DNA of 64,000 bases from positions 5,022,001 through 5,086,000 of the forward strand of contig NZ_FNSO01000004.1 of the NCBI RefSeq assembly GCF_900105945.1, read 5' to 3'. Each line of letters starts with the position of its first letter. Position 1 is the stretch's first letter. The notes beneath the pieces are model-generated. The model saw only the letters and a list, made by a program, of their open reading frames with translations, was not told where the DNA came from and did no database searches. Below, in pieces: positions 11,701-57,467 of the stretch. This DNA comes from Amycolatopsis tolypomycina (GTDB taxonomy: Bacteria > Actinomycetota > Actinomycetes > Mycobacteriales > Pseudonocardiaceae). Made by a program: the position numbers and the translations under genes.

Positions 11701-12143
11701 ACCACACCCGAAGCGACATCGATCGCATAGGCGAACGCACCGTGGTCCCGGGCAGCCTGCTGATTGACGGCCGAACCGGGCAGCACCGCAACCGCGACGA
11801 AACGCCCGTCCCCGGACAAGCACTGATACCCGGTCCAGGACGCCTCATCGAAGCCGGCCGGGCTGATCAGAGCGATCTCCTGCCACGCGAACCCGGCATT
11901 CTCCTTGGCTACCCGGACGTGGTAGCCCGCCTGGTCGCCCCACCCGTCCACGGCGAGATCGCCGGATCGCACAGCGTCCGGACCGAAGTCACCCGGCCCG
12001 GCGACGGTTGCCGTCTTCGCTGAGGCCGCCTCGGCCGGCGCAACGATCGGGACAGCCGTCACGACAGTGGCGGCCAAGCCGACGATCACCAAGAGAGCGA
12101 CGAATGTTCTTCCGGACAGCAGAGATCTCCGCGCATTGCGCAC
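8742..12143 (-). pseudogene. RHS/YD-repeat secreted protein, N-terminal part, truncated by IS21
   Basis: The preferred start is GTG 12143 (MRNARRSLLSG) with GGAAGG 8 bases upstream; TTG 12176 is an alternative. A signal segment (FVALLVIVGLAATVVTAVPI) ends near AEAASA. Next comes a beta-propeller-like stretch of about 350 residues, a Pro/Thr linker, then a lytic-transglycosylase-like domain at about 485-620 (GIMAQESNWSQASW, CGYGIGQVTSGMH, FAIWAYNSG). A golvesin/carbohydrate-binding-like domain follows at about 820-970 and a DUF6531-type pre-RHS segment at about 1005 (GDPVDTSTGYFGQDFTD). The frame stops at a TGA supplied by the IS21 end. With the 2302-5676 part it would make about 2,256 residues. 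The truncated product could still be secreted. Confidence 0.9.
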
Positions 12144-12423
12144 AGCACAAGCCTTCCCACCCCAGTACGGCTTCAACAGCCGTCCAGCTCGCGCGTGCCC
12201 GCAATCCGGGCCGCTCAGCGAAAACTACGCACAGGTGACCAAAAATGGGATCGACCATTCGGGGGAATATGGCAAGCCGACCGTAAGAAAAGCATTAAAA
12301 GTCACCAAGAGCTTTCTTTACCAGGGTATTGAAAACGCTTGAATCGATCTGGCCAAATTGAACTTTTCGTATGTTTGCAGGCGTCCCGATCCTACGGCCC
12401 CGGCGGGCTCCCTGGTCGCGCCC
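12144..12423. other. AT-richer intergenic region upstream of the RHS gene
   Basis: About 280 bases between the RHS start and the end of the hydrolase gene. The part at about 12235-12375 is clearly richer in A/T than its surroundings (AAGAAAAGCATTAAAAGTCA) and probably holds the RHS promoter. I see no convincing reading frame here. Confidence 0.5.
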
Positions 12424-14437: not shown

Positions 14438-15129
14438 GGTGACTCCTCCGGGACGAAGCGGTACCCGATGCCGGTCTCGGTGATCAGGTACCGCGGGTGG
14501 GACGGCTCGGGTTCGAGCTTGCGCCGCAGCTGTGCCATGTAGACGCGCAGATAGTGCCCACGGTCCGCGTAGTCCGGTCCCCAGACCTTGGTCAGCAGAT
14601 GTTTACCACTGATCAGCGAGTCGGGGTTGCGGACGAGCTGTTCGAGGATGGCCCATTCCGTGCGGGTCAGGTGCACCGCCACGTCACCCCGGCGGACAGT
14701 CTTCGATGAGACGTCCACGGTGAACGCGGCGGTCTCGACGACGAGGTCCGGTTCGGGCGGCGCGCCGAGGGCCAGCCGCCGTTCCGCGACGCGCAGGCAC
14801 GCGAACAGCTCGTCCATCCCGAACGGCTTGGTGACGTAGGTGTCGGCACCGGTGTCGAGGGCCCGGATCTTGTCCGCGGACCGGTCCCGGGCCGAGAGCA
14901 CGATGATCGGCATCGCGCTCCAGGTCCGCAGCTCGCGGATCACCTCGATGCCGTCGATGTCGGGCAACCCGAGGTCGAGCAGCACCAGGTCCGGGTGCTC
15001 GGTCGCCGCGGTCAGCAGCGCCGAGGCACCGTCGGTGGCCGTGACCACGGAGTAGCCGCGGGCGGTGAGGTTGATCCGCAGCGCCCGCACGAGCGCGGTT
15101 TCGTCGTCGACCACGAGCACAGACGTCAT
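14434..15129 (-). CDS. kdpE: Potassium-response regulator KdpE
   Basis: 231 residues. The receiver domain (1-120) has the acidic pair in VVDDE, the phospho-Asp in LVLLDLGLPD and the Lys in YVTKPFG. The OmpR/PhoB winged helix follows (about 130-231: LTRTEWAILEQLVRNPDSLI, VYMAQLRRKLE, ETGIGYRF). KdpE activates kdpFABC under potassium limitation or osmotic stress. Its ATG overlaps the kdpD stop by 4 bases. Confidence 0.95.
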   Translation of the reverse strand: MTSVLVVDDETALVRALRINLTARGYSVVTATDGASALLTAATEHPDLVLLDLGLPDIDGIEVIRELRTWSAMPIIVLSARDRSADKIRALDTGADTYVTKPFGMDELFACLRVAERRLALGAPPEPDLVVETAAFTVDVSSKTVRRGDVAVHLTRTEWAILEQLVRNPDSLISGKHLLTKVWGPDYADRGHYLRVYMAQLRRKLEPEPSHPRYLITETGIGYRFVPEESP

Positions 15130-17636
15130 CGCGTCACCTCCGGCAGGGACACCACGATCGTCAGGCCGCCACCCGGGGTGTCCTCGGCCCGGATGTCCCC
15201 GTCCATCGCCTCCACGAACCCCTTCGCGACCGACAGCCCCAGCCCGACACCGGGAGTTGTGTTGCGGTCGCCGAGCCGCTGGAACGGCGCGAACGCCGAA
15301 TCGGCCGTGCCTTTCGGCAAGCCGGGGCCGTGGTCGACGATCCGCAGCTCGACGCGGCCCCCGTACGCGCTCGCGCGCACGGCGACCTCGCCGCCGCCGT
15401 GGCGGAGCGCGTTGTCGATCACGTTGGCGATCGCCCGTTCCAGCAGGCCGGGATCAGCGGTGACCGCGGGCAGCCGGTCGTCGATGTCGACCGCGATCTT
15501 CGCGCCGCCGTCCACCGCGGCCAGCGCCGTCGCGACGACCTCGTCGTACCCGACCGGCCGGAGCAGCGGCTGCACCGCGCCGGTCGCCAGGCGCGACGAA
15601 TCCAGGAGGTTGTCGACCAGCCCGGAAAGCCGGTCCGTCGACTCTTCACCGGCACTCAGCAGTTCCTCGGTGTCCTCTTCGGACAAGCTGATGTCGTGGG
15701 CGCGCAGCCCGCCGAAGACGGCCTTGATGGACGTGAGCGGGGTGCGCAGGTCGTGGCCGATGGCCGAGAGCAAGGCCGTCCGCAGCTCGGTGGTTTCCGC
15801 CCGCCGCTGTGCCTCCTGCGTCTGCGCGGCCATCCGCTGCTGCCGCAGGGCGAGCAGGGCCTGACCCGCCGCGGCCTCGAGCACCCGCTGGTCGTGTGCC
15901 GGCAGCGTCCGGCCGCGCAACGCGAGGTGGACGTCGTCGGTGACCGGGACGTCGACGTCGGCTTCGTCCGGGTCGTCGCACGGCCGTTCCCCCGTGCAGG
16001 CCGCGCGGACCCATTCGTCGTCCTGTTTCTCCAGCAGCGAGACGGATTCGAGCCCGAAGTTCTCCCGCACCTTTTCCAGCAGCCGCTGCAGTGGGTCGCC
16101 GTCGCCGAGCACGGTCCGTGCGTAGGAGGCCAGCAGCGCGGCCTCGGTCCGGGCCCGCGCGGCGGCGTCGGCCCGGCGGGAGGCCCGGTCGACGACGAGC
16201 GCGAAGGCCACCGCGACGACGACCATCGCGATCAGCGTGATGATGTTCTGCTGGGCGTCGACGGTCAGCGTGTACAGCGGCGGGGTGAAGAAGAAGTTCA
16301 GCAGCAACGCGCTCGCGATCGACGCGAACAGCGCGGGCCCGAGCCCGCCGACGAGGGCCACGATGATCGTCGCGAGGAAGTAGTCGATCACGTTGGTGGA
16401 CAGAATCAGCGTCTGCCGCAGCACCACGCCGATCAGCGTCGCCACCGCAGGCAGGAGCAGCGCGAGCGCCCAGCCGAGCACCTGCCGCCGCCGGGCCAGA
16501 GAGCTGCGCGGGAACAGCTTCGCGCGCAGGCGCCCGCCGGACTCGTCGTGGGTGACCATGTGCACGTCGATCGGCCCGGACTCCTGCACCACCGTGGCGC
16601 CGATGCCCTCGTCGAACAGCCGCGCCACCCGGGAGCGCCGGGACGTGCCCACGACGACCTGCGTCGCGTTCACGCCGCGGGCGAAGTCGAGCAGCGCGGT
16701 CGGGACGTCGTCGCCAACCACGGTGTGGAAGGTGGCGCCGACGTCTTCGGCGAGCTTGCGGTACTCGGCGATCGCCTGCGGGGATGCCCCAGCCAGGCCG
16801 TCGCCGCGCAGGATCTGGAGCACCAACAGTTCGGCGCCGGCCCGTTTGGCGATGCGGCGGGCCCGCCGGATCAGCGTCTCGCTCTCCCGGCCGCCGCTGA
16901 TCGCCACGACCACCCGCTCCCGCGCCTCCCACGTGTCGGTGATGTCGCGCTCGCTGCGATAGCGCTGCAGCGCGACGTCGACCTGATCGGCCACCCACAG
17001 CAGGGCGAGCTCCCGCAGTGCGGTGAGGTTGCCGGGCCGGAAGTAGTTGCCCAGCGCGGCGTCGATCCGGTTGGCCGGGTAGACGTTGCCGTGCGCGAGC
17101 CGCCGCCGCAGCGCCTCGGGCGTGATGTCGACCAGTTCGAGTTGCTCGGCGCGGCGGACGACCTCGTCCGGGACGGTCTCCTGCTGGGCGATGCCGGTGA
17201 TCCGCTCGACGACGTCGTTGAGACTCTCCAGGTGCTGCACGTTCACCGTCGAGAGCACGTCGATCCCGGCGTCCAGGAGTTCCTCGATGTCCTGCCAGCG
17301 CTTCTCGTTGCGCGAGCCGGCCACGTTGGTGTGCGCCAGCTCGTCCACGACCGCGACTTCCGGGGCGCGGGCGAGGATCGCATCGACGTCCATCTCCTCA
17401 AAGTCGTGCCCGCGGTAGGCCAGCGTGTGCCGCGGGACAGCTTCGAGCCCGTCCAGGAGCTCAGCGGTCTTGCGCCGGCCGTGCGTCTCCACCAGGCCGA
17501 CGACGACGTCGGTGCCGCGGCCGAGCCGGCGGCGGGCCTCCCCGAGCATGGCGAAGGTCTTCCCCACGCCCGGGGCGGCCCCCAGGTAGATCCGCAGCTC
17601 ACCGCGACGGCGCTTGCCCGCGTCCGCTGTCGTCAC
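15126..17636 (-). CDS. kdpD: Sensor histidine kinase KdpD
   Basis: 836 residues, close to full length for KdpD. The N-terminal KdpD domain has GAAPGVGKTFAML (Walker A) and VVDELAHTNVAGSRNEKRW. A Usp-like domain lies at about 225-360 (VVVAISGGRESETLIRRARR, VVVGTSRRSRVARL). The DUF4118 membrane unit of four helices is at about 385-490, then a GAF-like region. The kinase core has the H-box in LSAIGHDLRTPLTSI, an N-box (IANVIDNALRHGG) and G-boxes (DHGPGLPKG, GVGLGLSVAKGFV). It senses K+ and phosphorylates KdpE. It sits 3 bases after kdpC in the operon. Confidence 0.96.
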   Translation of the reverse strand: MTTADAGKRRRGELRIYLGAAPGVGKTFAMLGEARRRLGRGTDVVVGLVETHGRRKTAELLDGLEAVPRHTLAYRGHDFEEMDVDAILARAPEVAVVDELAHTNVAGSRNEKRWQDIEELLDAGIDVLSTVNVQHLESLNDVVERITGIAQQETVPDEVVRRAEQLELVDITPEALRRRLAHGNVYPANRIDAALGNYFRPGNLTALRELALLWVADQVDVALQRYRSERDITDTWEARERVVVAISGGRESETLIRRARRIAKRAGAELLVLQILRGDGLAGASPQAIAEYRKLAEDVGATFHTVVGDDVPTALLDFARGVNATQVVVGTSRRSRVARLFDEGIGATVVQESGPIDVHMVTHDESGGRLRAKLFPRSSLARRRQVLGWALALLLPAVATLIGVVLRQTLILSTNVIDYFLATIIVALVGGLGPALFASIASALLLNFFFTPPLYTLTVDAQQNIITLIAMVVVAVAFALVVDRASRRADAAARARTEAALLASYARTVLGDGDPLQRLLEKVRENFGLESVSLLEKQDDEWVRAACTGERPCDDPDEADVDVPVTDDVHLALRGRTLPAHDQRVLEAAAGQALLALRQQRMAAQTQEAQRRAETTELRTALLSAIGHDLRTPLTSIKAVFGGLRAHDISLSEEDTEELLSAGEESTDRLSGLVDNLLDSSRLATGAVQPLLRPVGYDEVVATALAAVDGGAKIAVDIDDRLPAVTADPGLLERAIANVIDNALRHGGGEVAVRASAYGGRVELRIVDHGPGLPKGTADSAFAPFQRLGDRNTTPGVGLGLSVAKGFVEAMDGDIRAEDTPGGGLTIVVSLPEVTR

Positions 17637-17639
17637 CGG

Positions 17640-18251
17640 TCAGTGCCTGGCCGCCGCGACGGCGAGGTTGAGCTGCAGCACGGTGACCGCCGGGTCGCCG
17701 AGCACGCCGAGCCCACGCCCGGTCGTGTTCTCGGCGACGAGCTTGCGGACCTCGTCCTCGCTCAGGCCGTTCTCCCGTGCGACCCGCGGCACCTGCAGCT
17801 CGGCGTAGGCCGGGCTGATCTGCGGATCGAGGCCCGAGGCCGACGCGGTGACGGCGTCGGCCGGGATCTTCGAGACGTCGACGCCTTCGCGCTTGGCGAT
17901 CAGCTCCTGCCGCTGCTTGACCAGCGCGAGCAGGTCGTCGTTGCCGGTGCCCTTGTTCGACGCACCCGAGGTGGACGGGTCACCCGGGCCGAGCGGGTCC
18001 TTCGACCCCGCCGAGGGCCGGTTGTGGAAGTACGGGTCGTGGGCCGGGTCCTTCGCCACCGGGTCGACGCCGATCAGCGACGACCCGACGGCTTGCCCGT
18101 TCTGCGTGACGATCGAGCCTTCGGCCTGGTCCGAGAGGCCGGGGATCCGGGCCACCGCCCAGACGGCCAGGGGGTAGACGACGCCCAGCAGCACGGTCAG
18201 CACCAGCAGCATCTTCAGGCCGGCGACGGTCTGCTTGTACAGCACCTTCAT
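17640..18251 (-). CDS. kdpC: K+-transporting ATPase subunit KdpC
   Basis: 203 residues from ATG 18251. One N-terminal membrane helix (GLKMLLVLTVLLGVVYPLAV) is followed by a periplasmic domain with the KdpC landmarks GSSLIGVDPVAKDPAHDPYF and FHNRPSAG, then SASGLDPQISPAYAELQVPR and GVLGDPAVTVLQLNLAV. KdpC is a non-catalytic partner of the KdpFABC pump. The ATG lies 2 bases after the kdpB stop. Confidence 0.96.
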   Translation of the reverse strand: MKVLYKQTVAGLKMLLVLTVLLGVVYPLAVWAVARIPGLSDQAEGSIVTQNGQAVGSSLIGVDPVAKDPAHDPYFHNRPSAGSKDPLGPGDPSTSGASNKGTGNDDLLALVKQRQELIAKREGVDVSKIPADAVTASASGLDPQISPAYAELQVPRVARENGLSEDEVRKLVAENTTGRGLGVLGDPAVTVLQLNLAVAAARH

Positions 18252-18253
18252 GA

Positions 18254-20344
18254 TCACATTCCCGGAATCAGTCGGACGAGCAGGTCGATCAGCCAGATCC
18301 CGGCGAACGGCGTCACGATGCCGCCGAGGCCGTAGATCAGCAGGTTGCGTCGCAGCAGCGCCTTCGCGGTGGAGGGCTTGTACCGCACGCCACGCAGCGC
18401 CAGCGGGATCAGCGCCACGATGATCAGCGCGTTGAAGATGACCGCGGACAGGATCGCCGAGTTCGGCGAGTGCAGCCGCATGATGTTGAGCGTGTCGAGC
18501 TGCGGGTAGATCGCCGCGAACATCGCGGGCAGGATCGCGAAGTACTTCGCCAGGTCGTTGGCGATGGAGAACGTCGTCAGCGCACCGCGGGTGATGAGCA
18601 GCTGCTTGCCGATCTCGACGATCTCGATCAGCTTCGTCGGGTTGGAGTCGAGGTCGACCATGTTGCCGGCCTCCTTGGCCGCCATGGTCCCGGTGTTCAT
18701 CGCCACCCCGACGTCCGCTTGCGCGAGGGCGGGGGCGTCGTTGGTGCCGTCGCCGGTCATCGCGACCAGCCGGCCACCCTCCTGCTCCTTCTTGATCAGC
18801 GCCATCTTGTCTTCGGGCTTGGCCTCGGCCAGGAAGTCGTCGACGCCGGCCTCCGCGGCGATCGCCCGCGCGGTGAGCGGGTTGTCCCCGGTGATCATGA
18901 CGGTCTTGATGCCCATCGTGCGCAGCTCGGCGAAGCGCTCCTTCATGCCGGGCTTGACGACGTCGGACAGCCGGATCACCCCTCGCACGGCGGCGACGCC
19001 TTCGACTTGTTCGGCGACGACGAGCGGGGTACCACCTTCGGCGCTGATCGTGTCGACGATGGTGTGCACCTCGTCCGGCACGGTGCCACCGTGCTCCGCG
19101 ACCCAGGCCCGCACGGCGCTGGCGGCGCCCTTGCGGACGATCCGGCCGTTCAGGTCGATGCCGGACATCCGGGTCTGCGCGGTGAACGGCACGAATTCGC
19201 CGGACTTCTCCGCTTCGTTCGGCTCGGCCGCGAGGTCGTGCTCGCGGCCGCACAGGTCGACGATGCTGCGGCCTTCGGGCGTGCCGTCGGCCAGGCTCGA
19301 GAGCCGCGCCGCGATCGCCAGGTCCTCCACCGTGGACGATCCGGCGGGCAGCAACTCGGTCGCCTGGCGGTTGCCGAAGGTGATCGTGCCGGTCTTGTCC
19401 AGCAGCAGCGTCGATACGTCGCCGGCGGCCTCGACCGCGCGGCCGCTGGTCGCCAGCACGTTGCGCTGGACCAGGCGGTCCATGCCCGCGATGCCGATGG
19501 CGCTCAGCAGGGCGCCGATCGTCGTGGGGATCAGGCAAACCAGCAGTGCGGTCAGCACGATCACCGAGACCAGGCCGCCCGAGTAGCCGGCCATCGGCTG
19601 CAGCGCCACGACCGCGAGGACGAAGATGATCGTCAGCACGGCCAGCAGGATGGTCAGCGCGATCTCGTTCGGCGTCTTCTGCCGCGAAGCGCCCTCCACC
19701 AAGGCGATCATGCGGTCCACGAAGGACTCGCCCGGCTTGGTCGTGATCTTGACGACGATCCGGTCGCTCAGCACGGTCGTGCCGCCGGTGACCGCGGACC
19801 GGTCGCCGCCGGACTCGCGGATGACCGGGGCCGACTCACCCGTGATGGCCGACTCGTCGACGGTCGCGATGCCCTCGACGACGTCGCCGTCACCCGGGAT
19901 CACCTCGCCCGCCTCGACGACCACCAGGTCACCGATCCGCAGGTCGACGCCCGGTACACGCTCCTCGGAACCGTCCTCGGTCAGGCGGCGGGCGACGGTC
20001 TCCTTCTTGGTCTTGCGGAGGGACTCGGCTTGGGCCTTGCCACGGCCTTCGGCGACAGCTTCGGCGAGGTTGGCGAACAGGACGGTGAACCACAGCCACA
20101 GCGCGACGCCGATGTTGAACACGCCCGGGTCGGTGATCGCGAAGACGGTCACCAGCACCGACCCGACCCAGACCACGAACATGACGGGGTTGCGCAGCTG
20201 GTGGCGCGGGCTGAGCTTGCGGAAGGCGTCCGGCAGGGACGTCCAGAGCTGGCGGGGGTTGAACACGCCCGCGCCGACCCGGCCGGCGTTCTCGACGTGG
20301 TGCTGGGTGGCTTCCTCGGGGGTGCGGTCGGTGGTCATGGTCAT
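18254..20344 (-). CDS. kdpB: K+-transporting P-type ATPase subunit KdpB
   Basis: 696 residues, as expected. The phosphorylation loop is [15 protein letters not shown]. Other P-type marks are [11 protein letters not shown] (actuator), [20 protein letters not shown] (hinge) and the KdpB C-terminal helices. It couples ATP hydrolysis to K+ entry through KdpA. ATG 20344 overlaps the kdpA stop (ATGA); a second ATG two codons later is equally possible. Confidence 0.97.
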
Positions 20345-21999
20345 GCGAGAGCCTCGGCAATCGGCCCGAGGGCCAGGGCGGGGATGAAGGTCAGGGCCGC
20401 GACCAGCACAACCGTGCCGGCGAGCATCGTCGCGAACAGCGGGCTGGTGGTCGGCAGCGTGCCGGCGGTCTCCGGCACCTTCTTCTGCGCGGCCAGCGAA
20501 CCGGCCAAGCAGAGCACAGCGAGGATGGGGATGAACCGGCCCAGCGCCATGCAGACACCGAGAGTCGACTGGTACCAGTCGTTGGTCACGGTGATTCCGG
20601 CGAAGGCGCTGCCGTTGTTGTTGCTGGCCGAGGTGTAGGCGTAGAGCAGCTCGGAGAAGCCGTGCGCGCCCGGGTTGTTGAACGCGGCGGTGTTGCCCGG
20701 GATCAGCAGGGCTGCGCCCGCGCCGATCAGCACCACGGCAGGCATGGCCAGCATCGCGATCGAGGCGCAGGTGACCTCACGCTTGCCGAGCTTCTTGCCC
20801 AGGTACTCCGGCGTGCGCCCGACCATCAGGCCGGCCAGGAACATGGCGATGATCGCCATCACCAGGATGCTGTAGAGGCCGGTGCCGACACCGCCGGGCG
20901 AGAGCTCGCCGAACATCATGTTCAGCAGCGTCCCGAAGCCGCCGAGCCCGGTGAAGCTGTCGTGCATCGAGTTCACCGCACCGGTCGACGTGCCGGTCGT
21001 CGAGTCGGCGAACAACGCCGACCCCGCGATCCCGAAGCGGGTTTCCTTGCCCTCCAGGGCCGCGCCGGCCAGCCTGGCAGCCGCACCGTTCGCGTGCGTC
21101 TCGCCCCACCAGATCACCGCGAGCATCCCAGCCCACAACGCACCCATGACGCTGAGGAGGACGTAACCCTGCTTGGTGTTGCCCACCAGCTTGCCGAAGG
21201 TGCGGGTCAGGGCGACCGGGATCACCAGCAGCAGGAAGATCTCGATCAGGTTGGACCACGAGTTCGGGTTCTCGAACGGGTGGGCGGAGTTGGCGTTGAA
21301 GATGCCGCCGCCGTTGGTGCCGATCTCCTTGATCGCCTCCTGGCTCGCCGCCGGCGCGAGCGCGATGGTGCTGGCCGAGCCGTCCGGGTTGAGCACCGAG
21401 ACGCCGGACTTGAGGCTCTGCACCACGCCGAGCGCGACCAGCACGATCGCGAAGAGGAACGACAGCGGCAGCAGGATCCGGACCGTGCCGCGGGTCAGGT
21501 CGACCCAGAAGTTGCCGAGCCGGTCGCTCTGCGAGCGGACGAACGCACGGGTCAGCGCGATCGCCACCGCCAGGCCGACGCCGGCGGAGACGAAGTTCTG
21601 CACGGTCAGCCCGGCCATCTGGACCACGTGGCCCATGACGCCCTCGGGGACGTAGGACTGCCAGTTCGTGTTGGTGACGAAACTGATCGCGGTGTTGAAG
21701 GCGACCCCGGGGTCGACGGTGCGGCCGAAGTTCAGCGGCAGCAGCGGCTGAATGCGCTGCAGCAGGTAGAGGAACAGCACCGAGACGAACGAGAAGCCCA
21801 GCACGCCCGAGGCATAGGTCTTCCAGTGCTGCTCGGACTCCGGATCCGCGCGCACGATCTTGTAAACGGCCTTCTCCAGCCGCCAATGTTTCGTGCTCGT
21901 GAACACGCGGTGCATGTAGTCGCCCAGCGGCCGGTACACCAGCGCCAGGGCGAGCAGGAGGAGGCCGACCTGTCCCAGGCCGGCCCACGTCGAGGACAT
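20341..21999 (-). CDS. kdpA: K+-transporting ATPase subunit KdpA
   Basis: 552 residues from ATG 21999 ([20 protein letters not shown]). It has about ten helices and four P-loop-like filter regions, including [15 protein letters not shown] and [20 protein letters not shown]. KdpA is the ion-selective subunit of the pump. Its start shares one base with the kdpF stop. Confidence 0.97.
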
Positions 22000-29275: not shown

Positions 29276-29330
29276 GCTAGAATCGACCCAGCTTCAAGAT
29301 CGCGTTTCGCGATCCGTGGGGTAATACTGT

Positions 29331-29413
29331 GTCCGAGGGGGGACTTGAACCCCCACGCCCGTTAAGGGCACTAGCACCTCAAGCTAGCGCGTCTGCCATT
29401 CCGCCACTCGGAC
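29331..29413 (-). tRNA. tRNA-Leu (anticodon GAG)
   Basis: 83 nt on the minus strand. The acceptor stem GTCCGAG pairs with CTCGGAC. The anticodon arm is GCTAGC-TTGAGGT-GCTAG with GAG at the anticodon. The long variable arm (GTGCCCTTAACGGGCGT) is typical of leucine tRNAs, and the T-arm is GGGGGTTCAAGTCCCCC. CCA is not encoded. Its 3' end faces the recombinase gene. Confidence 0.96.
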
Positions 29414-49426: not shown

Positions 49427-49777
49427 TCACCCTTCCGGTTCCGCGGGCGCTTCTTCGGACGGCGCCGCCCCTTCGCGCACCCACTTCAGCTTGACCTCGA
49501 ACTGGCCCTGCAGACCGGTGCGCGCGATCACCGCACCGGCCTGGGCGTCGAGCTTGACGCCGAACTTGAGCTCGACCTCGTCCGGGCCCAGGTTGCGGAA
49601 CTGGGCCAGCGCCGCGGCCGCGGCCGTGCGGACCTCGCCCAGCGCGTGCTCGAACGTCGTGGACGCCTTGCGCAGCACGCCCGAGGGCACCGAGGCTCGT
49701 TCCAGGCCCGGCTCCCCTTCGACCTCGACGACGACCGTTCCGCCGTCGGCCAGCGGGAACCGCACGAACTCCTGCAC
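49427..49777 (-). CDS. Trypsin-co-occurring domain (Trypco1/CU044_2847-type) protein
   Basis: 116 residues from GTG 49777 (MQEFVRFPLADGGTVVVEVE). The pattern is two strands, a central helix of Ala-rich turns (STTFEHALGEVRTAAAAALA) and a closing beta pair with PDEVELKFGVKLDAQAGAVI then QFEVKLKW, the design of the Trypco1 domain found beside trypsin-like proteases and NTPases in conflict-type gene clusters. Here it is the last of six same-strand genes and the protease is the first. It may bind or restrain the protease or kinase. Confidence 0.8.
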   Translation of the reverse strand: MQEFVRFPLADGGTVVVEVEGEPGLERASVPSGVLRKASTTFEHALGEVRTAAAAALAQFRNLGPDEVELKFGVKLDAQAGAVIARTGLQGQFEVKLKWVREGAAPSEEAPAEPEG

Positions 49778-49803
49778 GAAATCTCCTTCGGTAGTGACGA
49801 TTC

Positions 49804-51084
49804 TCAGCACGGCAGGTCGAGCCACTGGTCCCGGCCGATGTCCCGGCGGACCCGGTCCAGCTGGTCGAGCAGGGTGGGCAGCCGGGCCGGGTCGGCCAGG
49901 TACTCCAGCACCGCCTGGTAGAAGGCGCTGGTCATCGCCGCGGGCATCAGGTCCGACGCGTCGAAGCACAGGTTGCCGCCCTTGGCGAGGGTCGTCGCGA
50001 TCCGCCGGGTGACGTCGCTGCGGTAGACGTCCTCGTCGACGAGGCGCTGGTGCACCGAGAACGTGGTCCCGCCGGACGGCCAGATCCGCTGGCCCGCCGC
50101 CCCGGCCAGGTAGGCCATGAGCCGCCGCGCGGCGGGCGTGTCGCGGAACATCCCGGCGAGGTCGGCCGAGACCTCCGACGGCCCGGTACCGCCGGCGCCG
50201 GGGAACGGGAAGAACCGGAAGTCCCGGTCGGGTACCGGTGGCCCGGCCGGCCGCGGGACGGCGGCGTACCCGCCGATCGCGAACGAGCCGAGGTGCTCCA
50301 GCGCGCACCCGGGCGGGTCGGCGAACATGGCTCGGCCGGCGTCGGCGAACGAGGTGAGCAGGGCCGCCGTGCTGCCGCCGCCGGGCGCCGGCACCAGCGC
50401 GCCCCAGCTCTGCCACGCGTCGGCGACCGCGGGGTCGGTCCAGGCCAGCCGGCCCGCCGCCCAGCTGCTGTAGACGCCCGGCCCGGCGCGGTGCAGCAGG
50501 ATGTCCTCGAGCCAGTCCGTGCCGGGGAACCCGGAGTTCGGCGGGGCGCCCATGCCGAGGCACCACGGCCGCTGCCCGGCCGCGGCCAGCCGCCGCGACA
50601 CGGCCACCAGTTCGTCCCAAGTGGACGGAACCGGCCCGGGGAACGACTTGGGCGTGTACCAGACGATGCTCTTCAGGTCGGCCTTCACCACCACCGCGTA
50701 CACGGCGTTGCCGCCGAGCTGCTGCAGCCGCCGCCACTGCGGGCTGTAGGCCGCGCGGACCTCCGCGTCGAGAACGGCGTCCAGGGGTTTCACGTCGCCG
50801 GAGCCCACGTACCCCGCGAGTTCGGCCGGGTTGGACAGCACCGCCACGTGGGGCGGGGTGCCCTGCTGCAGGTCGCCGCGCAGCACCTGGTTCTGCGCGC
50901 GGGTGCCCTGGTAGTCCACCGGGATCCCGGTCTCCCGGGTGAAGCCGTCGAGCACCTGCCGGAACGCCTTCTGCTCGTCGCCGGTCCACGGCCCCAGCAC
51001 CGTCACGACCTCCGTGCCGCTCCCGGCGGCACACCCGGACAGCAGCAGGACGACGACCAGCACCAGGCCGGCACAGCGATTCAC
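49804..51084 (-). CDS. Sugar-type extracellular solute-binding lipoprotein
   Basis: 426 residues from GTG 51084 (MNRCAGLVLVVVLLLSGCAA). The lipobox LSGC with the lipidated Cys marks membrane anchoring outside the cell. The mature part is a family-1 (maltose-binding-like) periplasmic-binding fold: VTVLGPWTGDEQKAFRQVLD, VVKADLKSIVWYTPKSFPGP, PSTWDELVAVSRRLAA and GNLCFDASDLMPAAM. No ABC permease or ATPase accompanies it. Its start overlaps the stop of the GlnX-like gene. The position matches GlnH in the PknG-GlnX-GlnH pathway, but GlnH proteins bind amino acids. Confidence 0.88.
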   Translation of the reverse strand: MNRCAGLVLVVVLLLSGCAAGSGTEVVTVLGPWTGDEQKAFRQVLDGFTRETGIPVDYQGTRAQNQVLRGDLQQGTPPHVAVLSNPAELAGYVGSGDVKPLDAVLDAEVRAAYSPQWRRLQQLGGNAVYAVVVKADLKSIVWYTPKSFPGPVPSTWDELVAVSRRLAAAGQRPWCLGMGAPPNSGFPGTDWLEDILLHRAGPGVYSSWAAGRLAWTDPAVADAWQSWGALVPAPGGGSTAALLTSFADAGRAMFADPPGCALEHLGSFAIGGYAAVPRPAGPPVPDRDFRFFPFPGAGGTGPSEVSADLAGMFRDTPAARRLMAYLAGAAGQRIWPSGGTTFSVHQRLVDEDVYRSDVTRRIATTLAKGGNLCFDASDLMPAAMTSAFYQAVLEYLADPARLPTLLDQLDRVRRDIGRDQWLDLPC

Positions 51085-52193
51085 GACGCTCTCCTCGTGC
51101 GGAACCGGTATTCGTCGAGGCGGGGTTGCAGGCCACCCACCGCCAGGACGCCGATCCCGGCGGCCAGCAGGGGGATGCCGTACCCGAGGACGCCGCTCCA
51201 GCCGGGTTCGGTGAGCCCCGGCCCCAGCAGGGCCGCCTCGTCGACCTCGGGAGGCGGCTGGGCCCCGACGGTCGGCGGCACGGGCGTGGCCGCGGCGAAC
51301 GCGGCGACCGTGTCGCCACAGGCGGCCACGCCTCCCGGGCACTGGACGGCCAGTACCTGGACGAGCGTCCACCGGGTCACCCCGGCGACCGCCGCGGTGG
51401 CGGCGGAGCGGGTGTCCACGGTCCGTTCCAGCGCGGCGGCGCTGTCGCGCGCGTCGGCCTGGACGCCCAGCAGCAGCGCGGTTCCCGTGCCCAGCAGCAC
51501 GCACGCCGCCGTGGCGGCCAGCAGCGCGGCGTTCACGGTGCGCCGGAACCGCCGGGCGAGGAACCGCTGGGTCCACGCCAGCGTGCCGAGCAGGACGGCC
51601 AGCGGCAGCGCCCAGAGCACCGTGATCGCGGGGTCCAGCCAGTCGGCGCCCAGCTGGACGTCGAGGGCGGCGCGCTGGGCGGCTTCGAGCGTGTCGAGCC
51701 GCGCGAGGATGCCGTTTTCCGGCGCGGTCAGCAGATCCGACGCCGAGAGCAGGTAGCTCGCGCCGAGCGGCCCGCCCGTGTCCTGGCGGAAGTGGGCGTC
51801 GGCCTGCCCGATGAAGCTGTTGTACGCCGGCAGCAGCCCTTCGATCAGCTGGAGCGTCCGGCTGCCCTGTGCCCCGGCCGCGTTGTGCTCCGCGACCTGC
51901 GCGAGCTGCTGGCTGGCGAGGGCGATTCCGTCTTCGTACTGCTCGCTGGGCCCGGTCAGTTTCGCCTGGCCGTGGTCGAAGGCCCGCACCGCCGCGTCGT
52001 GCGCGTGCACGAGCGCCTCCTTGGCCAGCGACACCTCGAGCACCGCGGGCGCGGTCCGCTCCCGCACCTCGGCGATGCTGGACCGGACGCCGAGGAAGGT
52101 CGCCAGCGCGGTCCCGAGCACCAGCACGCTGCCGGCCACCAGGCCCAGCCGCAGCCACCACAGGGTCTGCCGGGTCGTGCTGACCGCGGTCAC
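51081..52193 (-). CDS. GlnX-like membrane signalling protein
   Basis: 370 residues from GTG 52193 (MTAVSTTRQTLWWLRLGLVA). Four membrane helices are visible: about 14-34, 200-218 (LDPAITVLWALPLAVLLGTL), 235-253 (AALLAATAACVLLGTGTALL) and 334-352. Two extracytoplasmic helical loops of about 160 and 80 residues lie between. This is the layout of mycobacterial GlnX, which joins extracellular GlnH to cytosolic PknG. The sequence has no kinase or HAMP signature. It is coupled by GTGA to both neighbours. Confidence 0.75.
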   Translation of the reverse strand: MTAVSTTRQTLWWLRLGLVAGSVLVLGTALATFLGVRSSIAEVRERTAPAVLEVSLAKEALVHAHDAAVRAFDHGQAKLTGPSEQYEDGIALASQQLAQVAEHNAAGAQGSRTLQLIEGLLPAYNSFIGQADAHFRQDTGGPLGASYLLSASDLLTAPENGILARLDTLEAAQRAALDVQLGADWLDPAITVLWALPLAVLLGTLAWTQRFLARRFRRTVNAALLAATAACVLLGTGTALLLGVQADARDSAAALERTVDTRSAATAAVAGVTRWTLVQVLAVQCPGGVAACGDTVAAFAAATPVPPTVGAQPPPEVDEAALLGPGLTEPGWSGVLGYGIPLLAAGIGVLAVGGLQPRLDEYRFRTRRAS

Positions 52194-53608
52194 GACGGCG
52201 AGCCTTCGAACGGTTCACCACAGTGCCCGCACCGCTTCGCCGACGGCCGCGCTTTGTGTCCACAGTGGACGCACTGGCGCGGTGCCCCGCCGGGTTCGGG
52301 TGGCACGGCGACGGCGGCGGGTTCCACCGCCCCGGTGTAGGTCGAGATGGTCGAGCCGAGCACCAGGGAGAAGCCATCGCGCGGGCGTACGCCGTCCTTG
52401 ATCGTGACGGCGCCGTCGTCGCGCACGTCGACGAGCCGGCCCAGGCGCTTGAGGATCTCCGCGTTGCCCAGCTCGGTCGCGAGCCGGACCGCGGTGCCCC
52501 ATTCGCGCGCCGCCACCGCCCGGTCTTCGCGCTCGAACGCGTCCCAGCCCGCCCGGACCGCGCAGCCCAGCTCGGCCTGCCCGGTGACGCGGGCGACGTT
52601 GTCGTCCGGGACGCTGGACAGCGCGAGGTCGTCGGTCAGGTACCCCACGACGGCCTGCGGCTCGCCGACCGGCTCGCCCGCGAAGAGCGTGACGGTGCCC
52701 AGCAGCCTGTCCTCGTACCGCGTCAGCTCCCCCGCCTCGACGTCGAGGCAGAGGTGGTACTCGCGCAGCTCGTCGCCCCACGCGCCGGTGGGCAGCTCGA
52801 CCAGGCGATCCCGGGTCCGGCACTGCCCGGTGAGCTCCACCTCGGCCGGGAACACCTGCTTGACGAAGCGCAGCCTGCTGTAGGGCATCGTGGTCAGCCG
52901 CAGCCGCAGGTCCGGCACGGTCCGGCCCATCGCCCGCTCGACCAGCTGCCGGAAGTCGCCGGCGAGTTCGCTGTCCTCCAGCACGGCGTCCGCGCTGCCG
53001 CGCAGGACCGACGCGATGCGCTGCAGCTCCCGCGGCTCCCAGTCGTCCCCGATTCCCCTGGCATCGCAGGCGAACTGCCCCCGGCACCGGTCGAGCGCGG
53101 CGTCCAGCGCCCCCGTGCGCTCGGATTCGTTGCGGCCGTCGGTGAGCAGCACGGCGTGCCGGATCGCGGCCGGGGTCTGCTCGAACAGGGTCCTGGCCAG
53201 GTCCAGCCACGTGCTCATCGCGGTGCCGCCGCCGGCGATCAGGCCGGCGGCCGCCGCCTTCGCCGCCCGGCGGGTCCGCTCGCCGGCCACCGCCAGCGGC
53301 GGCTCGGCCGGGTACACCAGCCGGGCGCGCCCGGTGCCTTCGACGACCCCGAACAGCACGCCGTCCCGCAGCGAGCCGATCGCCGCCCGGCAGGCGTGCC
53401 GCGCGGCCTCGATCTTCGTCGGCGGCCAGTCCATCGAGCTGGAGCAGTCCACCAGCAGCAGCTCGGCGGTGGCCGGCGGCCCGGCCGCGGCGACACCGGC
53501 GTCGCCCACCCGCACCGTGAGGACGACGTCCATCCGGTCGTCGCTCGGCGCCAGGTACTTGTTCTGGCTCAGCTGGAGGGTGAACGACGGGCGGTCCGGG
53601 TCGGGCAT
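52190..53608 (-). CDS. von Willebrand factor A (vWA) protein with C-terminal zinc ribbon
   Basis: 472 residues from ATG 53608 (MPDPDRPSFTLQLSQNKYLA). The vWA domain (about 45-230) keeps its metal-binding MIDAS site: Asp54, Ser56, Ser58 in ELLLVDCSSSMDW, a Thr in GGGTAMSTWLDLA and Asp in HAVLLTDGRNESE. A beta-rich middle follows. The end has two CxxC pairs (QCVHCGHKARPSAKRCGHCG) forming a zinc ribbon. vWA proteins act as scaffolds in bacterial conflict and signalling clusters. It begins 4 bases after the kinase gene. Confidence 0.88.
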   Translation of the reverse strand: MPDPDRPSFTLQLSQNKYLAPSDDRMDVVLTVRVGDAGVAAAGPPATAELLLVDCSSSMDWPPTKIEAARHACRAAIGSLRDGVLFGVVEGTGRARLVYPAEPPLAVAGERTRRAAKAAAAGLIAGGGTAMSTWLDLARTLFEQTPAAIRHAVLLTDGRNESERTGALDAALDRCRGQFACDARGIGDDWEPRELQRIASVLRGSADAVLEDSELAGDFRQLVERAMGRTVPDLRLRLTTMPYSRLRFVKQVFPAEVELTGQCRTRDRLVELPTGAWGDELREYHLCLDVEAGELTRYEDRLLGTVTLFAGEPVGEPQAVVGYLTDDLALSSVPDDNVARVTGQAELGCAVRAGWDAFEREDRAVAAREWGTAVRLATELGNAEILKRLGRLVDVRDDGAVTIKDGVRPRDGFSLVLGSTISTYTGAVEPAAVAVPPEPGGAPRQCVHCGHKARPSAKRCGHCGEPFEGSPS

Positions 53609-53612
53609 CCGA

Positions 53613-55820
53613 TCACCTTCTCGTCTTCGGCCGGACGGAGTTCGCGAGGTCGACGAGCACGCCGTGGGCGTCGCGGTCGGCCGCCTGCTCGGCGAGCCGG
53701 CGCAGGGACTGCTCCAGCAGCGACCGCAGGCCGCGTTCGGAGACGCGCTCGCCGAGGAGCGCGCCGCCGTCCCAGCCGTACGGGCCGATTTCCCCGGCCA
53801 GTGCGGGCAGCGCGGCCAGTGCGGCCTCGCGCACGAGCGCCTCCAGCCGGTCCTGCGCCTCCCGGTCGAGGTAGAGCTCGGGCAGCCGCCGCGCCGCGTC
53901 GGCGAAGTCGTCCCGGTCCGGTGCCCCGTACGACAGGCGCCCGGCCCGGATCCGCACGGCCGCGATCCGCGCCGCGTCGTAGTGGCGCGAGATCGGCGGA
54001 ACGGCGTCCAGCAGGGCGACCGCGGCATCGCGGCCCGCGGTCCGCAGGTAGCAGCGGGCCAGGCCGAAGGCCGCGCTGGCCTGGTTGTGGTCGCGGTGCC
54101 ACACCGAGCGGTACCAGCGTTCCGCCTGCGCGGTGTGCCCGCGCAGTTCGGCGCAGAACCCGAGCGCCAGCTTCGGCGCGATCTCGCCGGGCCAGCTGCG
54201 GTGCACCCGGTCGAACGCGGCCGCGGCCTGCTCGGCGTCTTCGCGGGCCAGCGCCAGCAGGCCGTGGTGCCAGGCCGCCCGCCAGTCGCGCGCGGCCTCG
54301 GCCCCCAGCTGCTCTTCGGCGTTCGCCAGTGCCGCGGCCGCCGCCGCGGCGTCGCCCAGCGCGACCAGCGCCCGCGTCCGGGCGAACGCGATCTCCACCG
54401 AGCTCTCGCCGAACATCGCGAGCTTGTCCAGCCAGCGGTGCGGCCCGGGCGCGCCCGCGATGGCGATGAACTCGGCCGCGGCGTCGTCGGCCGCCACCCG
54501 CGGGATCGGCAGCCGGCCCGCGCCGTCGGCGGCGCCCGGCAGGCCGAGGTCCAGCGGGCCGGCGGCCCCTTCGCCGGCGACCCAGTGGTCGAGGCCGGGT
54601 ACCGCGCCGAGGCCGTCGTCGAGCAGCTCCGCCGTGTCCTCGAACAGCGCCGACGGCACCGGCCGCGGCCGTTCGTCGCGCAGCGACAGGATTTCCCGGC
54701 GCACGCCGTCGAGCTGCTCGGCCGTCTCCGACGCCGTGGCGAACCGCCGCTCGAACGGCGCGACCGCGCGTTCGAGCACCCGGTGCAGCGAGTCCAGCCC
54801 GCCGGCGATCCGGTCCGGGGCGACGTCTTCGCTCGCGGCTTCGAGCAGCACCTGCAGCGTCCGGCCGACGGTGTGCAGGTCCGAGCGCACGGTCAGGCCG
54901 TGCCGGGCCAGCTCGTGCGCCGGTGCCTGGAAGCCTTCGGTGCCGACGCTCGGCCCGGTCCGGTCGCCGATCGGGCGGGCCGCGCCGAGGTCGATGACCT
55001 TGACCCGCTTGTCGCCGTGGATCACGTTCTCCGGCTTCATGTCGCAGTAGAGCAGGCCTTCGCCGTGGAGGTAGTCGAGCGCGCCGAGGATCGCCCGGCC
55101 GTAGACGATCACGTGCTCGACCCGCGGCGGCGGCCCCTGCCGCAGGAGATCGCGCAGCGACCGCCCGCCGACGTACTCCATCACCAGGTAGGTGTCCGGC
55201 TCGCCGCCGCCGGGCGGCGGGTGCTCGACGAAGTCGCTGATGCGCACGATGTTCGGGTGGTCGAGCCGGACGAGCACGTCGCGCTCGACCCGCGCGAGCG
55301 CGCGCAGCACGGCGTTGCCGCTGTTGATCACGCCCTTGAGCGCGACGTGCTGGCCGGCGAGCGCGGTGTCGGCGGCCAGGTACACCCAGCCGAGCCCGCC
55401 GCGGGCGAAGCAGCCGAGGACGTCGTAGCGGTCACCGACCCGTTCGCCGCGTTTCAGCTTGGGCAGGAAGGAGAAGCGCTCGCCGCAGTTCTCGCAGAAC
55501 CCCTCGGCGAACGCCGGTTCACCGGCGTAGGCGCGGCCGACGGGTTCCCCGCAGTGGCCGCAGAACCGGTGCTGCTCGGGGTAGTCCGGGTCGGCGAGGA
55601 CGAGCTTCTCCGGGTCCGGCACCTCGATGGCAGGCAGGGACTGGAAGTCCGCTTCGCCGCTCCAGAGTTCGACACTGCGTTTGAATTCGATACTGCGGTG
55701 GGTGCTCTCCGGCGCCGGCACCGACGGGGCGGACGGTGCCACCGGCACCCGGCGGCGCCCGCACACCTCGCAGAACCCGATGGGCCCGACCGGCCGCCCG
55801 TGGCACCACGTGGTCGTCAC
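53613..55820 (-). CDS. PknG-like Ser/Thr protein kinase with zinc-ribbon and TPR domains
   Basis: 735 residues from GTG 55820. Three CxxC motifs at about 17-20, 87-90 and 109-112 (FCEVCG, FCGHCGEPVG, FCENCGERFSFL) form rubredoxin/zinc-ribbon modules like PknG. The kinase domain (about 128-370) has GCFARGGLGWVYLA, the Lys in VALKG, YCDMKPENVI and VIDLGAARPIG, with DLG in place of DFG as in PknG. The GTEGFQAPAHELARHGLTV segment also follows PknG. A TPR C-terminus (about 480-735) includes ALGFCAELRGHTAQAERWYR. It is probably cytosolic and phosphorylates a GarA-like target. It is coupled to the protease by GTGA. Confidence 0.92.
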   Translation of the reverse strand: MTTTWCHGRPVGPIGFCEVCGRRRVPVAPSAPSVPAPESTHRSIEFKRSVELWSGEADFQSLPAIEVPDPEKLVLADPDYPEQHRFCGHCGEPVGRAYAGEPAFAEGFCENCGERFSFLPKLKRGERVGDRYDVLGCFARGGLGWVYLAADTALAGQHVALKGVINSGNAVLRALARVERDVLVRLDHPNIVRISDFVEHPPPGGGEPDTYLVMEYVGGRSLRDLLRQGPPPRVEHVIVYGRAILGALDYLHGEGLLYCDMKPENVIHGDKRVKVIDLGAARPIGDRTGPSVGTEGFQAPAHELARHGLTVRSDLHTVGRTLQVLLEAASEDVAPDRIAGGLDSLHRVLERAVAPFERRFATASETAEQLDGVRREILSLRDERPRPVPSALFEDTAELLDDGLGAVPGLDHWVAGEGAAGPLDLGLPGAADGAGRLPIPRVAADDAAAEFIAIAGAPGPHRWLDKLAMFGESSVEIAFARTRALVALGDAAAAAAALANAEEQLGAEAARDWRAAWHHGLLALAREDAEQAAAAFDRVHRSWPGEIAPKLALGFCAELRGHTAQAERWYRSVWHRDHNQASAAFGLARCYLRTAGRDAAVALLDAVPPISRHYDAARIAAVRIRAGRLSYGAPDRDDFADAARRLPELYLDREAQDRLEALVREAALAALPALAGEIGPYGWDGGALLGERVSERGLRSLLEQSLRRLAEQAADRDAHGVLVDLANSVRPKTRR

Positions 55821-57343
55821 GCGCCCTCCAGCCTGCGGCGCACCGCGCGCACGTACCGCTCGACCGGCTCGGCCGCCGCCTCCGGTTCGGCCGGCCGCGT
55901 GGTCAGCACCGCCATGGCCGCGCGGTACAGCTCGCCCAGCTCTTCGTCCTCCATCAGGCCCGCGCCGGTCGCCTTGGCGTTGTAGCCGCGCAGCCGTCCG
56001 CGCAGTTCGTCGTGCCGGTCGGCCAGCGCGTCGAGCCTGCCGTACAGCCGGACCAGCTCCCACCGGGCCGCTTCCGCGTCGCGTTCGGTCGCCGCCAGCG
56101 CGCGCCGCACGCGCCCCGGCTCGATCCGCTCGCCCGCCGAACGCAGCGCGGCCAGCCGCAGGCGCAGGTCCGCGGAACCGCCGGGCACCGCCACCGGCGA
56201 ACCGAGCCGGGCGGCCCGCTCCCGCGTGCGTTCCTCTTCGTGCTCCACCATTTCGACCAGCAGCGCCAGCCGGTCCAGGCGCCGCGCGTTGCGCTCGATC
56301 TCCCAGCGCCGCGCCAGCCGCACCCCGGGCGAGTCCGGCGTGCTGAACTGGACCAGCACGGTGGCGCCCTTGTCGACCAGCGGCCGCACCACGTCGGTGA
56401 GCACTTCCTCCGGTGCCCGCGCGTCTTCGACGCCGGTCACCGCCACCGCGACGTCCTCGGGGTTGGTCTCCAGGACGGTGAGCACCTCGCCGGTGCTGAT
56501 GCCCGCACTGACGTGCTCGGCCACCTCGCCGGTGGTCTTGCCGGTCGCGTCCACGATCGCGTCGAGCCGCTCGCCGGAGATCCGGGATCCCCGGCGCTCG
56601 CGCCGCACCTGCGCCAGGAAACCCTGCCGGACGGCCGAGTCGCGGTCGCCGATGACCACGATCAGCGGTCCCGCCGGCGGCCGCGGCGGCTCGCCCACCC
56701 ACCGGGCGACGTCCGGCACGTGCCGGACGATCACCTCGACCGGGATCAGGTAGGCGAGCCCGGCCCGTTCGTCGGTGTACTCGGTGACCACCATGCCCAG
56801 CACGGCACCGGTCGCCTTGTCGATCACGCCGGCACCGCTGAAGCCGCGCCGGACCCGCTCGCCGGGCAGCGGCGAGTTGAGCTGGATCCACTCCCCGGCG
56901 GCGCCGGCCGGACCGGCCAGCTCGGCGTTGTTCACCCAGACGCCGTACCGGTGCGGCGCCGGAAAGCCGTAGGTGTGGACCACCCGGTCGCGCACCGCAC
57001 CCAGGCGCACCAGCGGGGCGCCGGGCACGTGCGGGAACGCTTCGGCGAGGTCGAGCAGGGCGATGTCACCCCGGCCGTCGTCCGTCTGCGGCACCCAGCA
57101 GCCGGGCCGCACGGTGGCCTGCGCTTCCGGCATGCCCGTCAGGCCGACGAACCGCACCAGCACGGGCCCGCCCGAAAGCGCTTCCTCCCCGGCTGCCTGC
57201 ACCACGTGCGCGCAGGTGAGCACCGTGGCTTCGCCCAGCAGCATCCCGGCGCCCAGTGCCCGGCCCGACGAGTCCGACAGGCACACCCGCCACGGTTCCG
57301 GATCCCCCGCGCGCCCCTCGGCAGAACCGTTGTGCTCCCTCAC
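55817..57343 (-). CDS. Trypsin-like serine protease fused to a degenerate NTPase-like region
   Basis: 508 residues from GTG 57343 (MREHNGSAEGRAGDPEPWRV). The protease domain (about 18-215) has a complete triad: His46 in LTCAHVVQAA, Asp93 in GRGDIALLDL, Ser169 in GFSGAGVIDK. The region about 225-370 begins IVVIGDRDSAVRQGF where a P-loop would be expected but lacks G-K-S/T. It then has DAIVDATGKTTGEVAEHVSA and VAVAVTGVEDARAPEEVLTD, similar in pattern to STAND-type NTPases linked to proteases. The C-terminal 130 residues are helical (RWELVRLYGRLDALADRHDE). No signal peptide, so it is probably cytosolic. It is the first gene of the six-gene cluster. Confidence 0.85.
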   Translation of the reverse strand: MREHNGSAEGRAGDPEPWRVCLSDSSGRALGAGMLLGEATVLTCAHVVQAAGEEALSGGPVLVRFVGLTGMPEAQATVRPGCWVPQTDDGRGDIALLDLAEAFPHVPGAPLVRLGAVRDRVVHTYGFPAPHRYGVWVNNAELAGPAGAAGEWIQLNSPLPGERVRRGFSGAGVIDKATGAVLGMVVTEYTDERAGLAYLIPVEVIVRHVPDVARWVGEPPRPPAGPLIVVIGDRDSAVRQGFLAQVRRERRGSRISGERLDAIVDATGKTTGEVAEHVSAGISTGEVLTVLETNPEDVAVAVTGVEDARAPEEVLTDVVRPLVDKGATVLVQFSTPDSPGVRLARRWEIERNARRLDRLALLVEMVEHEEERTRERAARLGSPVAVPGGSADLRLRLAALRSAGERIEPGRVRRALAATERDAEAARWELVRLYGRLDALADRHDELRGRLRGYNAKATGAGLMEDEELGELYRAAMAVLTTRPAEPEAAAEPVERYVRAVRRRLEGA

Positions 57344-57467
57344 CGCAAGCGACCTTACGACCCGGCACCGGCACTCCGGGGCGGGTTCGCCCGCTTACCC
57401 GGGCAGATCACCCGATCGGCCGCAGCACGGCCGGCGACCGTGGAAAACTCACGAACCCGCGGCCCGG

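Follow-up and report, generated by a model that had tools for sequence, protein, structure and literature searches.

A six-gene variant of the PknG locus with a conflict-type protease in Amycolatopsis tolypomycina and related actinobacteria

The stretch of Amycolatopsis tolypomycina DNA analysed here (the window; 64,000 nucleotides, positions 5,022,001 to 5,086,000 of contig NZ_FNSO01000004.1) belongs to a genome of 10.36 Mb in 4 contigs and carries on its minus strand a cassette of six genes, which runs from position 57343 down to 49427. The genes encode, in this order, a trypsin-like protease, a PknG-type kinase, a vWA protein with a zinc ribbon, a GlnX-like membrane protein, a solute-binding lipoprotein and a Trypco1 protein, and we file the cassette as a variant of the PknG kind with a conflict-type protease. 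PknG is a much-studied kinase of mycobacteria and corynebacteria, and the path that takes an outside signal to it is so far a model. On balance, and with limited confidence, we favour the view that the cassette is a paralogous form of the PknG-GlnX-GlnH pathway in which both input and output have been swapped, such that an external, probably sugar-like ligand would control a cytosolic protease.

All six predicted genes were verified in the order given by a first-pass annotation made from the sequence alone, and all six frames were those chosen by a codon-composition gene caller. The protease gene (508 amino acids (aa); positions 55817-57343; Pfam Trypsin_2, 31 bits) overlaps by 4 bases the kinase gene (735 aa; 53613-55820; Pfam PknG_rubred, Pkinase and PknG_TPR with 67, 92 and 212 bits, respectively), which is followed after a gap of 4 bases by the vWA gene (472 aa; 52190-53608; Pfam VWA_3, 52 bits). 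Overlaps of 4 bases also join the vWA gene to the gene of the GlnX-like protein (370 aa; 51081-52193) and the latter to the lipoprotein gene (49804-51084; lipobox-like motif LSGC; Pfam SBP_bac_1, 66 bits), and 26 bases separate the lipoprotein gene from the Trypco1 gene (116 aa; 49427-49777; Pfam Trypco1, 95 bits). The tight coupling claimed earlier, with an overlap or a gap of 26 bases or less at every junction, is therefore borne out by the coordinates and the gene caller, and junctions of this kind are compatible with a single operon. Upstream, on the same strand, the interval 57344-57467 separates the protease gene from an ABC-2 permease gene and contains a terminator-like hairpin (57452-57466); a promoter and terminator scan gave no signal above chance, with 1 hairpin in the region against 1.7 expected in shuffled sequences.

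The kinase consists of a rubredoxin part (55455-55637), a catalytic part (54840-55448) and a TPR part (53622-54524). Its closest solved relative is PknG (2pzi, E 3.9e-111), and the catalytic residues K162, D260 and D277 were kept in all 53 kinases of trypsin-type loci, that is, loci of the cassette's own type. A second PknG-type kinase, 45% identical, is encoded elsewhere in the host genome in a GlnX-GlnH-PknG order (locus L003), which marks the cassette as a paralogue distinct from the metabolic PknG locus. With the PknG-GlnX-GlnH pathway of mycobacteria and corynebacteria (PMC9769921, PMC8546545, PMC6069109) the cassette shares a rubredoxin-kinase-TPR protein, a GlnX-type protein with four transmembrane (TM) segments, a lipoprotein partner and a tight operon; the corynebacterial kinase lacks the rubredoxin part. 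It differs from the pathway in its gene order, in the addition of the protease, vWA and Trypco1 genes, in a shorter second outside domain of GlnX, in an SBP_bac_1 protein that replaces GlnH, and in coexisting with a separate GlnX-GlnH-PknG locus. The likeness to this pathway put forward in the first-pass annotation thus holds for the layout and for the homology of the kinase and GlnX, but not for the ligand protein, which is of the sugar-type SBP_bac_1 family and not GlnH.

The first-pass annotation had proposed that the same gene order be sought in other actinomycetes, and it does recur, in many soil-dwelling actinobacteria and more regularly than chance would allow. A kinase search of 297 genomes of the host's family at a threshold of 1e-60, in which the best 3-5 candidates per genome were scored so that counts are lower bounds, gave matches in at least 215 genomes, with cassette-type and canonical kinases pooled. 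Two draws of loci were compared. The first comprised 51 non-canonical loci (50 taken by kinase score, and the window) and 10 canonical loci (9, and the host's own). Among the 51, all six genes were complete and in order in 27, and Trypco1 alone was missing from 11; 9 had protease-kinase-vWA-Trypco1 with the GlnX gene on the opposite strand, 1 had protease-kinase-vWA with an opposite-strand GlnX, 2 had kinase-GlnX-binding protein without protease or vWA, and 1 (L045) had a protease-kinase fusion without a vWA gene. The cassette order was found in none of the 10 canonical PknG loci, 9 of which were GlnX-kinase loci and 1 of which, near a contig end, had the kinase only. The second draw took the best 80 of 400 relatives found with a vWA profile across genera. 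The complete six-gene order was present in 30 of these loci (28 without additions, 1 in which two GlnX calls adjoin and 1 that has an extra GlnX-GlnH pair), 13 lacked Trypco1 alone, 6, all titled Streptomyces, had protease-kinase-vWA-binding protein, and the remainder were other variants or belonged to a second locus type described below. Trypsin-type loci came from genomes titled Amycolatopsis, Actinokineospora, Kutzneria, Kibdelosporangium, Saccharopolyspora, Saccharothrix, Lentzea, Umezawaea, Streptosporangium, Micromonospora, Plantactinospora, Virgisporangium and Streptomyces. Within this draw the closest relatives of the vWA protein were from Amycolatopsis (82-90% identity), and the genes flanking the cassette varied from genus to genus.

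Since the two draws share genomes, counts over all loci are redundant, and a dereplicated set was made at 78% kinase identity. Among 39 of its trypsin-labelled loci the protease-kinase gap was 30 bases or less in 22 of 39, each of the next three junctions (kinase to binding protein) was as short in 30 of 39, and the junction between binding protein and Trypco1 in 19 of 23. These counts are depressed by late start calls: genes in the loci were called with a codon-composition script whose starts are uncertain, several protease starts were placed too late, and L045, L046 and L203 were miscalled. Three observations on single loci were made in the course of this comparison. In L254 (Planotetraspora sp. 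A-T 1434) the Trypco1, GlnH and GlnX genes are found upstream of the protease, not downstream, and on the opposite strand. The kinase of L201, from a record titled Rhodococcus rhodnii NRRL B-16535, groups with those of Kibdelosporangium, possibly because of a mislabelled strain. L150 and L151 are very divergent trypsin-type cassettes, and the L150 genome (G557) also carries a locus of the second type, L149.

An AlphaFold2 model of the protease (mean predicted local distance difference test score (pLDDT) 86, predicted template modelling score (pTM) 0.61) shows three parts. The trypsin-like domain (aa 19-215; 56699-57289) has the triad H46, D93 and S169, and these residues were kept in 50, 49 and 49 of 53 trypsin-type proteases, respectively. 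A fold search with the whole model listed trypsin-fold chains alone, with matches to HtrA/Deg, V8 and related proteases. No signal sequence was seen by eye, and the protein is therefore taken as cytosolic. The middle alpha/beta domain (aa 227-333; 56345-56665) had no Pfam match in the window protein and only weak, scattered ones across 37 members. A cassette profile nevertheless matched P0085 without interruption over both its trypsin and its NTPase domain; P0085 is a protein from a metagenome contig with the architecture trypsin-AAA_16/nSTAND1-WD40, and a profile of the middle domain alone matched its AAA_16/nSTAND1 region with 76 bits (E 3.7e-22 in a set of 2774 sequences); after P0085 and the cassette protein of L045, the next match had 10 bits. 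The P-loop motif GK[ST] of Walker A was absent from 37 of 37 aligned cassette proteases. Owing to the P0085 match and the loss of this motif, we read the middle domain as a degenerate STAND-like NTPase. Homology between the cassette protease and P0085 is thus unbroken over the trypsin and NTPase domains, whereas the cassette protein lacks the P-loop and the WD40 repeats and has instead a C-terminal helical domain (55823-56329; helices at aa 339-507 in the model). Three Streptomyces proteins (P0074-P0076) are cassette-type proteases in which about 130 mid-protein residues lie outside the profile match.

In two genomes of one genus the trypsin domain, the STAND-like domain and the PknG kinase form one open frame. 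The fusion of L045 (frame 6573-10124; Pfam also run) has trypsin at aa 73-264, the STAND-like domain at 272-437 and the kinase at 471-1182, and that of L276 (frame from 5072) has them at aa 37-233, 249-407 and 448-1081, respectively. Genes for GlnX, an SBP_bac_1 protein and Trypco1 lie downstream in both, and neither the helical domain nor vWA had a match within these two loci. Natural fusion of this kind speaks for joint action of protease and kinase, and it supports the link between the two that the first-pass annotation had suggested. As the helical domain and the vWA protein are both missing where protease and kinase are fused, the sequences suggest that in unfused loci these two parts do the docking. 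The same data bear on a simpler explanation, in which the cassette is a plain second nutrient-sensing PknG that acts on GarA/OdhI, and protease, vWA and Trypco1 are operon neighbours without a shared role. Homology of the kinase and GlnX to the known pathway would suit it, but the host keeps a separate GlnX-GlnH-PknG locus, the gene order is kept across several families while flanks vary between genera, and two genomes have protease and kinase as one fusion; we consider this explanation very unlikely.

The vWA profile search, carried across the class, also detected the second locus type, in which the order is GlnX-GlnH-helical protein-PknG-PP2C-vWA-FHA, or GlnX and GlnH stand at the end. Its members include L147-L149, L170, L171, L232, L242, L246-L248, L251-L253, L256, L259-L262, L265 and L266, from Streptomyces, Streptacidiphilus, Actinomadura, Actinoallomurus and other genera; L148 (6828-17352) is an example. 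Pfam identified PP2C, FHA and SBP_bac_3 (GlnH) in L148 and PP2C and FHA in L171, and the helical protein had no Pfam match. A vWA match of either locus type was present in at least 39 of 298 genomes of the order, at least 94 of 394 of the class and at least 10 of 296 of the phylum. The helical domain of the cassette protease is homologous to the protein usually encoded directly before pknG in these PP2C/FHA loci (hhalign probability 99.7 over 164 columns) and also matches P0097-P0100. The two locus types therefore have in common a PknG-type kinase, the vWA family and a helical domain positioned before pknG; the PP2C/FHA loci have PP2C and FHA, sense via GlnH, and are without a trypsin before the kinase and without the zinc ribbon of vWA. 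An apparent helical-kinase fusion in L149 was discarded, because its parts lie in two frames before pknG and it looks like a frameshift or a sequence error.

A count over 181 loci, made without type labels, showed how the partners are distributed. A trypsin match in the gene directly before the kinase was present in 111 loci, and PP2C or FHA accompanied it in none of them (0/111); a helical protein without trypsin held this place in 40 loci, 36 of which had PP2C and/or FHA. After dereplication, PP2C or FHA was found in 0 of 49 loci with trypsin and in 26 of 30 with the helical protein. In a kinase tree of 97 dereplicated rows, a branch with a Shimodaira-Hasegawa-like approximate likelihood ratio test (SH-aLRT) support of 97 set apart 56 rows, consisting of 39, 7 and 5 trypsin-labelled rows and 5 incomplete or odd loci, from 41 rows, of which 34 were PP2C/FHA, 5 canonical and 2 other. 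The mutual exclusion of trypsin before the kinase and PP2C/FHA could mean that the protease is a quality-control or feedback part, which trims or removes the kinase, vWA or GlnX and so ends signalling in the place of PP2C. A cutting enzyme is not equivalent to a dephosphorylating one, however, and the two fusions would tether the protease to the very target that it is supposed to cut; we regard such a role as quite unlikely.

The vWA protein itself distinguishes the two types. Its metal-ion-dependent adhesion site (MIDAS) is intact (D54, S56, S58, T129 and D157), as it is in all 52 trypsin-type and all 34 PP2C/FHA-type proteins compared. At the C-terminus lies a zinc ribbon with four cysteines (52220-52273), which scored below the Pfam cut-off in the window protein (21 against 27 bits). 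Its first three cysteines were nonetheless present in 52 of 52 trypsin-type proteins and the fourth in 49 of 52, against 0-1 of 34 in the PP2C/FHA type, and the ribbon is thus a trait of the trypsin type. Together with the VWA_3 match, these cysteines confirm the vWA/zinc-ribbon identity assigned earlier. The Trypco1 gene of the cassette gave the single Trypco1 match in the host genome. By sequence, Trypco1 had no convincing solved relative, the best match being a designed helical bundle, and its structural model was poor (pLDDT 62).

The GlnX-like protein matched the NCBIfam GlnX model with 101 bits against a cut-off of 250 and is therefore related to, and outside, the curated subfamily. Four TM segments were predicted from hydropathy, in agreement with its earlier naming, along with a second outside domain of 91 aa and a C-terminal RLDEYR tail; the residues EY were found near the C-terminus in 78 of 88 GlnX proteins across locus types. 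According to published work (PMC9769921, PMC8546545), GlnX has four TM helices and two outside domains, and its inner parts are proposed to touch the TPR domain of PknG. The lipoprotein is an SBP_bac_1 protein and not an amino-acid-binding SBP_bac_3 protein, the family to which the GlnH of two other loci was assigned. Its nearest solved relatives, matched weakly at 24-37 bits, were chitin oligosaccharide-, AcbH- and glucose-binding proteins, and judging by its family the ligand is probably a sugar or an oligosaccharide.

A tree of GlnX proteins split exactly by partner, with 41 SBP_bac_1-paired proteins on one side (support 99) and 43 GlnH-paired proteins on the other, and 2 unpaired. The pairing of the binding protein with GlnX, assumed from the start, is borne out by this split. 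In seven dereplicated loci with a trypsin-type kinase and an opposite-strand GlnX-GlnH pair, GlnX fell on the GlnH side. L229 (Actinokineospora sp. NBRC 105648) has both pairs, the cassette GlnX with SBP_bac_1 and an opposite-strand GlnX with GlnH; its second GlnX also fell on the GlnH side, and the locus is a possible intermediate of a sensor exchange. L157, whose kinase is on the PP2C/FHA side, has a GlnX paired with SBP_bac_1 and no PP2C in the locus, and possibly represents an independent exchange. The length of the second outside domain, estimated from hydropathy so that the shortest values may be prediction errors, followed the partner: it ranged from 24 to 105 aa in all 38 trypsin-type SBP_bac_1 loci measured and from 135 to 193 aa in all 44 GlnH-paired loci, and four further SBP_bac_1 loci had values of 87, 91, 101 and 138 aa. 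These comparisons speak for GlnX and its binding protein as an exchangeable sensor module independent of the type of kinase, and indirectly for a predicted contact between the two.

Trypsin, vWA and Trypco1 had been regarded in the first-pass annotation as parts of conflict systems. According to Kaur et al. (2020; PMC7159879), trypsins of VMAP systems often have Trypco1 next to them; the same authors describe a kinase-PP2C-vWA theme and iSTAND proteins to which trypsins are fused. In a later paper (PMC10907252) Trypco1 figures as an adapter domain that accompanies systems of this kind. The nearest relatives of the cassette trypsin outside cassettes were VMAP and trypsin-STAND(-WD40) proteins. 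The cassette has the trypsin and Trypco1 of VMAP systems and, of the MoxR-vWA pair of iSTAND systems, the vWA protein; the degenerate STAND-like domain behind its trypsin, recognised by comparison with P0085, may correspond to the inactive STAND domain that iSTAND systems fuse to effectors, trypsin among them. In contrast to these systems, a kinase and an outside sensor are added and no MoxR or VMAP component was found: the 113 trypsin-type loci contained no homologue of four MoxR proteins of the host genome (queries that find each other) or of its two VMAP-C proteins. In the host genome the nearest above-cut-off MoxR lies about 365 kb from the cassette, and two above-cut-off VMAP-C matches lie more than 1.8 Mb away, with a third, sub-threshold match (22 bits) about 390 kb away. 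Membership in the VMAP/iSTAND systems was rejected, since the fetched loci held no MoxR or VMAP homologue. The GAP1-N2 theme (PMC7159879) likewise places a standalone vWA protein next to a zinc-ribbon kinase in actinobacteria, but the cassette has no PP2C (0/111 loci) and has a trypsin and a binding protein instead.

This relationship raises the question of a phage-defence or programmed-death device, in which phage products or damage to the envelope would be sensed by the lipoprotein and GlnX, whereupon the kinase would unleash the trypsin on host proteins. The kinship of the trypsin and the description of Trypco1 beside conflict-system trypsins speak for it. Against it stand the distances of the MoxR and VMAP matches and their absence from the fetched loci, and the flanking genes: among 97 proteins that flank 14 trypsin-type loci PADLOC matched 5 families alone, with one member each, against 59 families among 97 flanking proteins of 18 other PknG loci, where the 25 listed were mostly kinase models. 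With no excess of defence models over the control, location in a defence island was rejected, and no mobile-element family was among the 25 of 110 Pfam families listed for the same trypsin-type flanking proteins. We consider a defence device unlikely. The earlier statement about conflict-system parts thus stands as regards the kinship of the trypsin but not as regards membership in a conflict system.

For the favoured reading, a paralogous PknG variant with swapped input and output, the following course of events can be envisaged. The SBP_bac_1 lipoprotein would bind a ligand outside the cell, probably a sugar or an oligosaccharide, and its state would be passed to the outside domains of GlnX, as the strict pairing of the two families suggests. 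By homology to what is proposed for PknG, the cytosolic end of GlnX would then act on the TPR domain of the kinase. Kinase and trypsin protein would work as one complex, in most loci docked through the protease's helical domain and the vWA/zinc-ribbon protein, both of which the fusions do without, and the cytosolic protease may be switched by the complex's phosphorylation state, with Trypco1 taking part. Several observations weigh against this reading. Of 43 vWA-drawn loci that are otherwise complete, 13 lack Trypco1, the six Streptomyces loci are without GlnX yet have the lipoprotein, and the two loci without protease and vWA show that the input half can exist without the protease. The triad residues are altered or unaligned in L068, L069, L202, L204 and L220, a trypsin-related gene occurs in the FHA locus L174, where it lies on the other strand and away from the kinase, and the SBP_bac_1 locus L157 has the long GlnX loop of 138 aa. 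The kinase and GlnX trees were, moreover, quick and unrooted ones made without bootstrap, and the kinases of L150 and L151, like the L150 GlnX, are on a very long branch.

A further step, which we put forward tentatively, is that the cassette performs ligand-gated intracellular proteolysis, an NLR-like trypsin-STAND protein having lost its nucleoside triphosphate switch and repeat sensor and joined a PknG kinase under an exchangeable sensor. The protease would have been joined to the kinase by the shared scaffold domain, or by outright fusion as in the two genomes, and the kinase would take over from the NTPase the switching of an immune-type protease. If so, nutrient sensing and conflict-type effectors would be joined in multicellular actinobacteria. 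If the output step holds, the cassette would link an outside ligand to bacterial proteolysis by way of a Ser/Thr kinase, a route of which we know no description. PknG-type kinases may also, as the two locus types suggest, serve outputs beyond 2-oxoglutarate flux, namely an intracellular protease or a PP2C/vWA/FHA set. That binding protein and GlnX travel and swap as a unit in evolution predicts an SBP-GlnX interface, for which natural chimaeras are available. The first-pass annotation knew of no described system with all six genes, and neither the cassette nor the PP2C/FHA locus type was found described in a search confined to open-licence literature, with subscription papers outside it.

Elsewhere in the window, positions 2302-12176 carry genes for an RHS-repeat protein, an IS21-type transposase pair and a DUF6531/golvesin-C protein, with a G+C content below that of the window's right half. 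Kdp potassium transport and sensor-kinase genes are located at 15126-21999, and a tRNA-Leu (gag) gene at 29329-29413.

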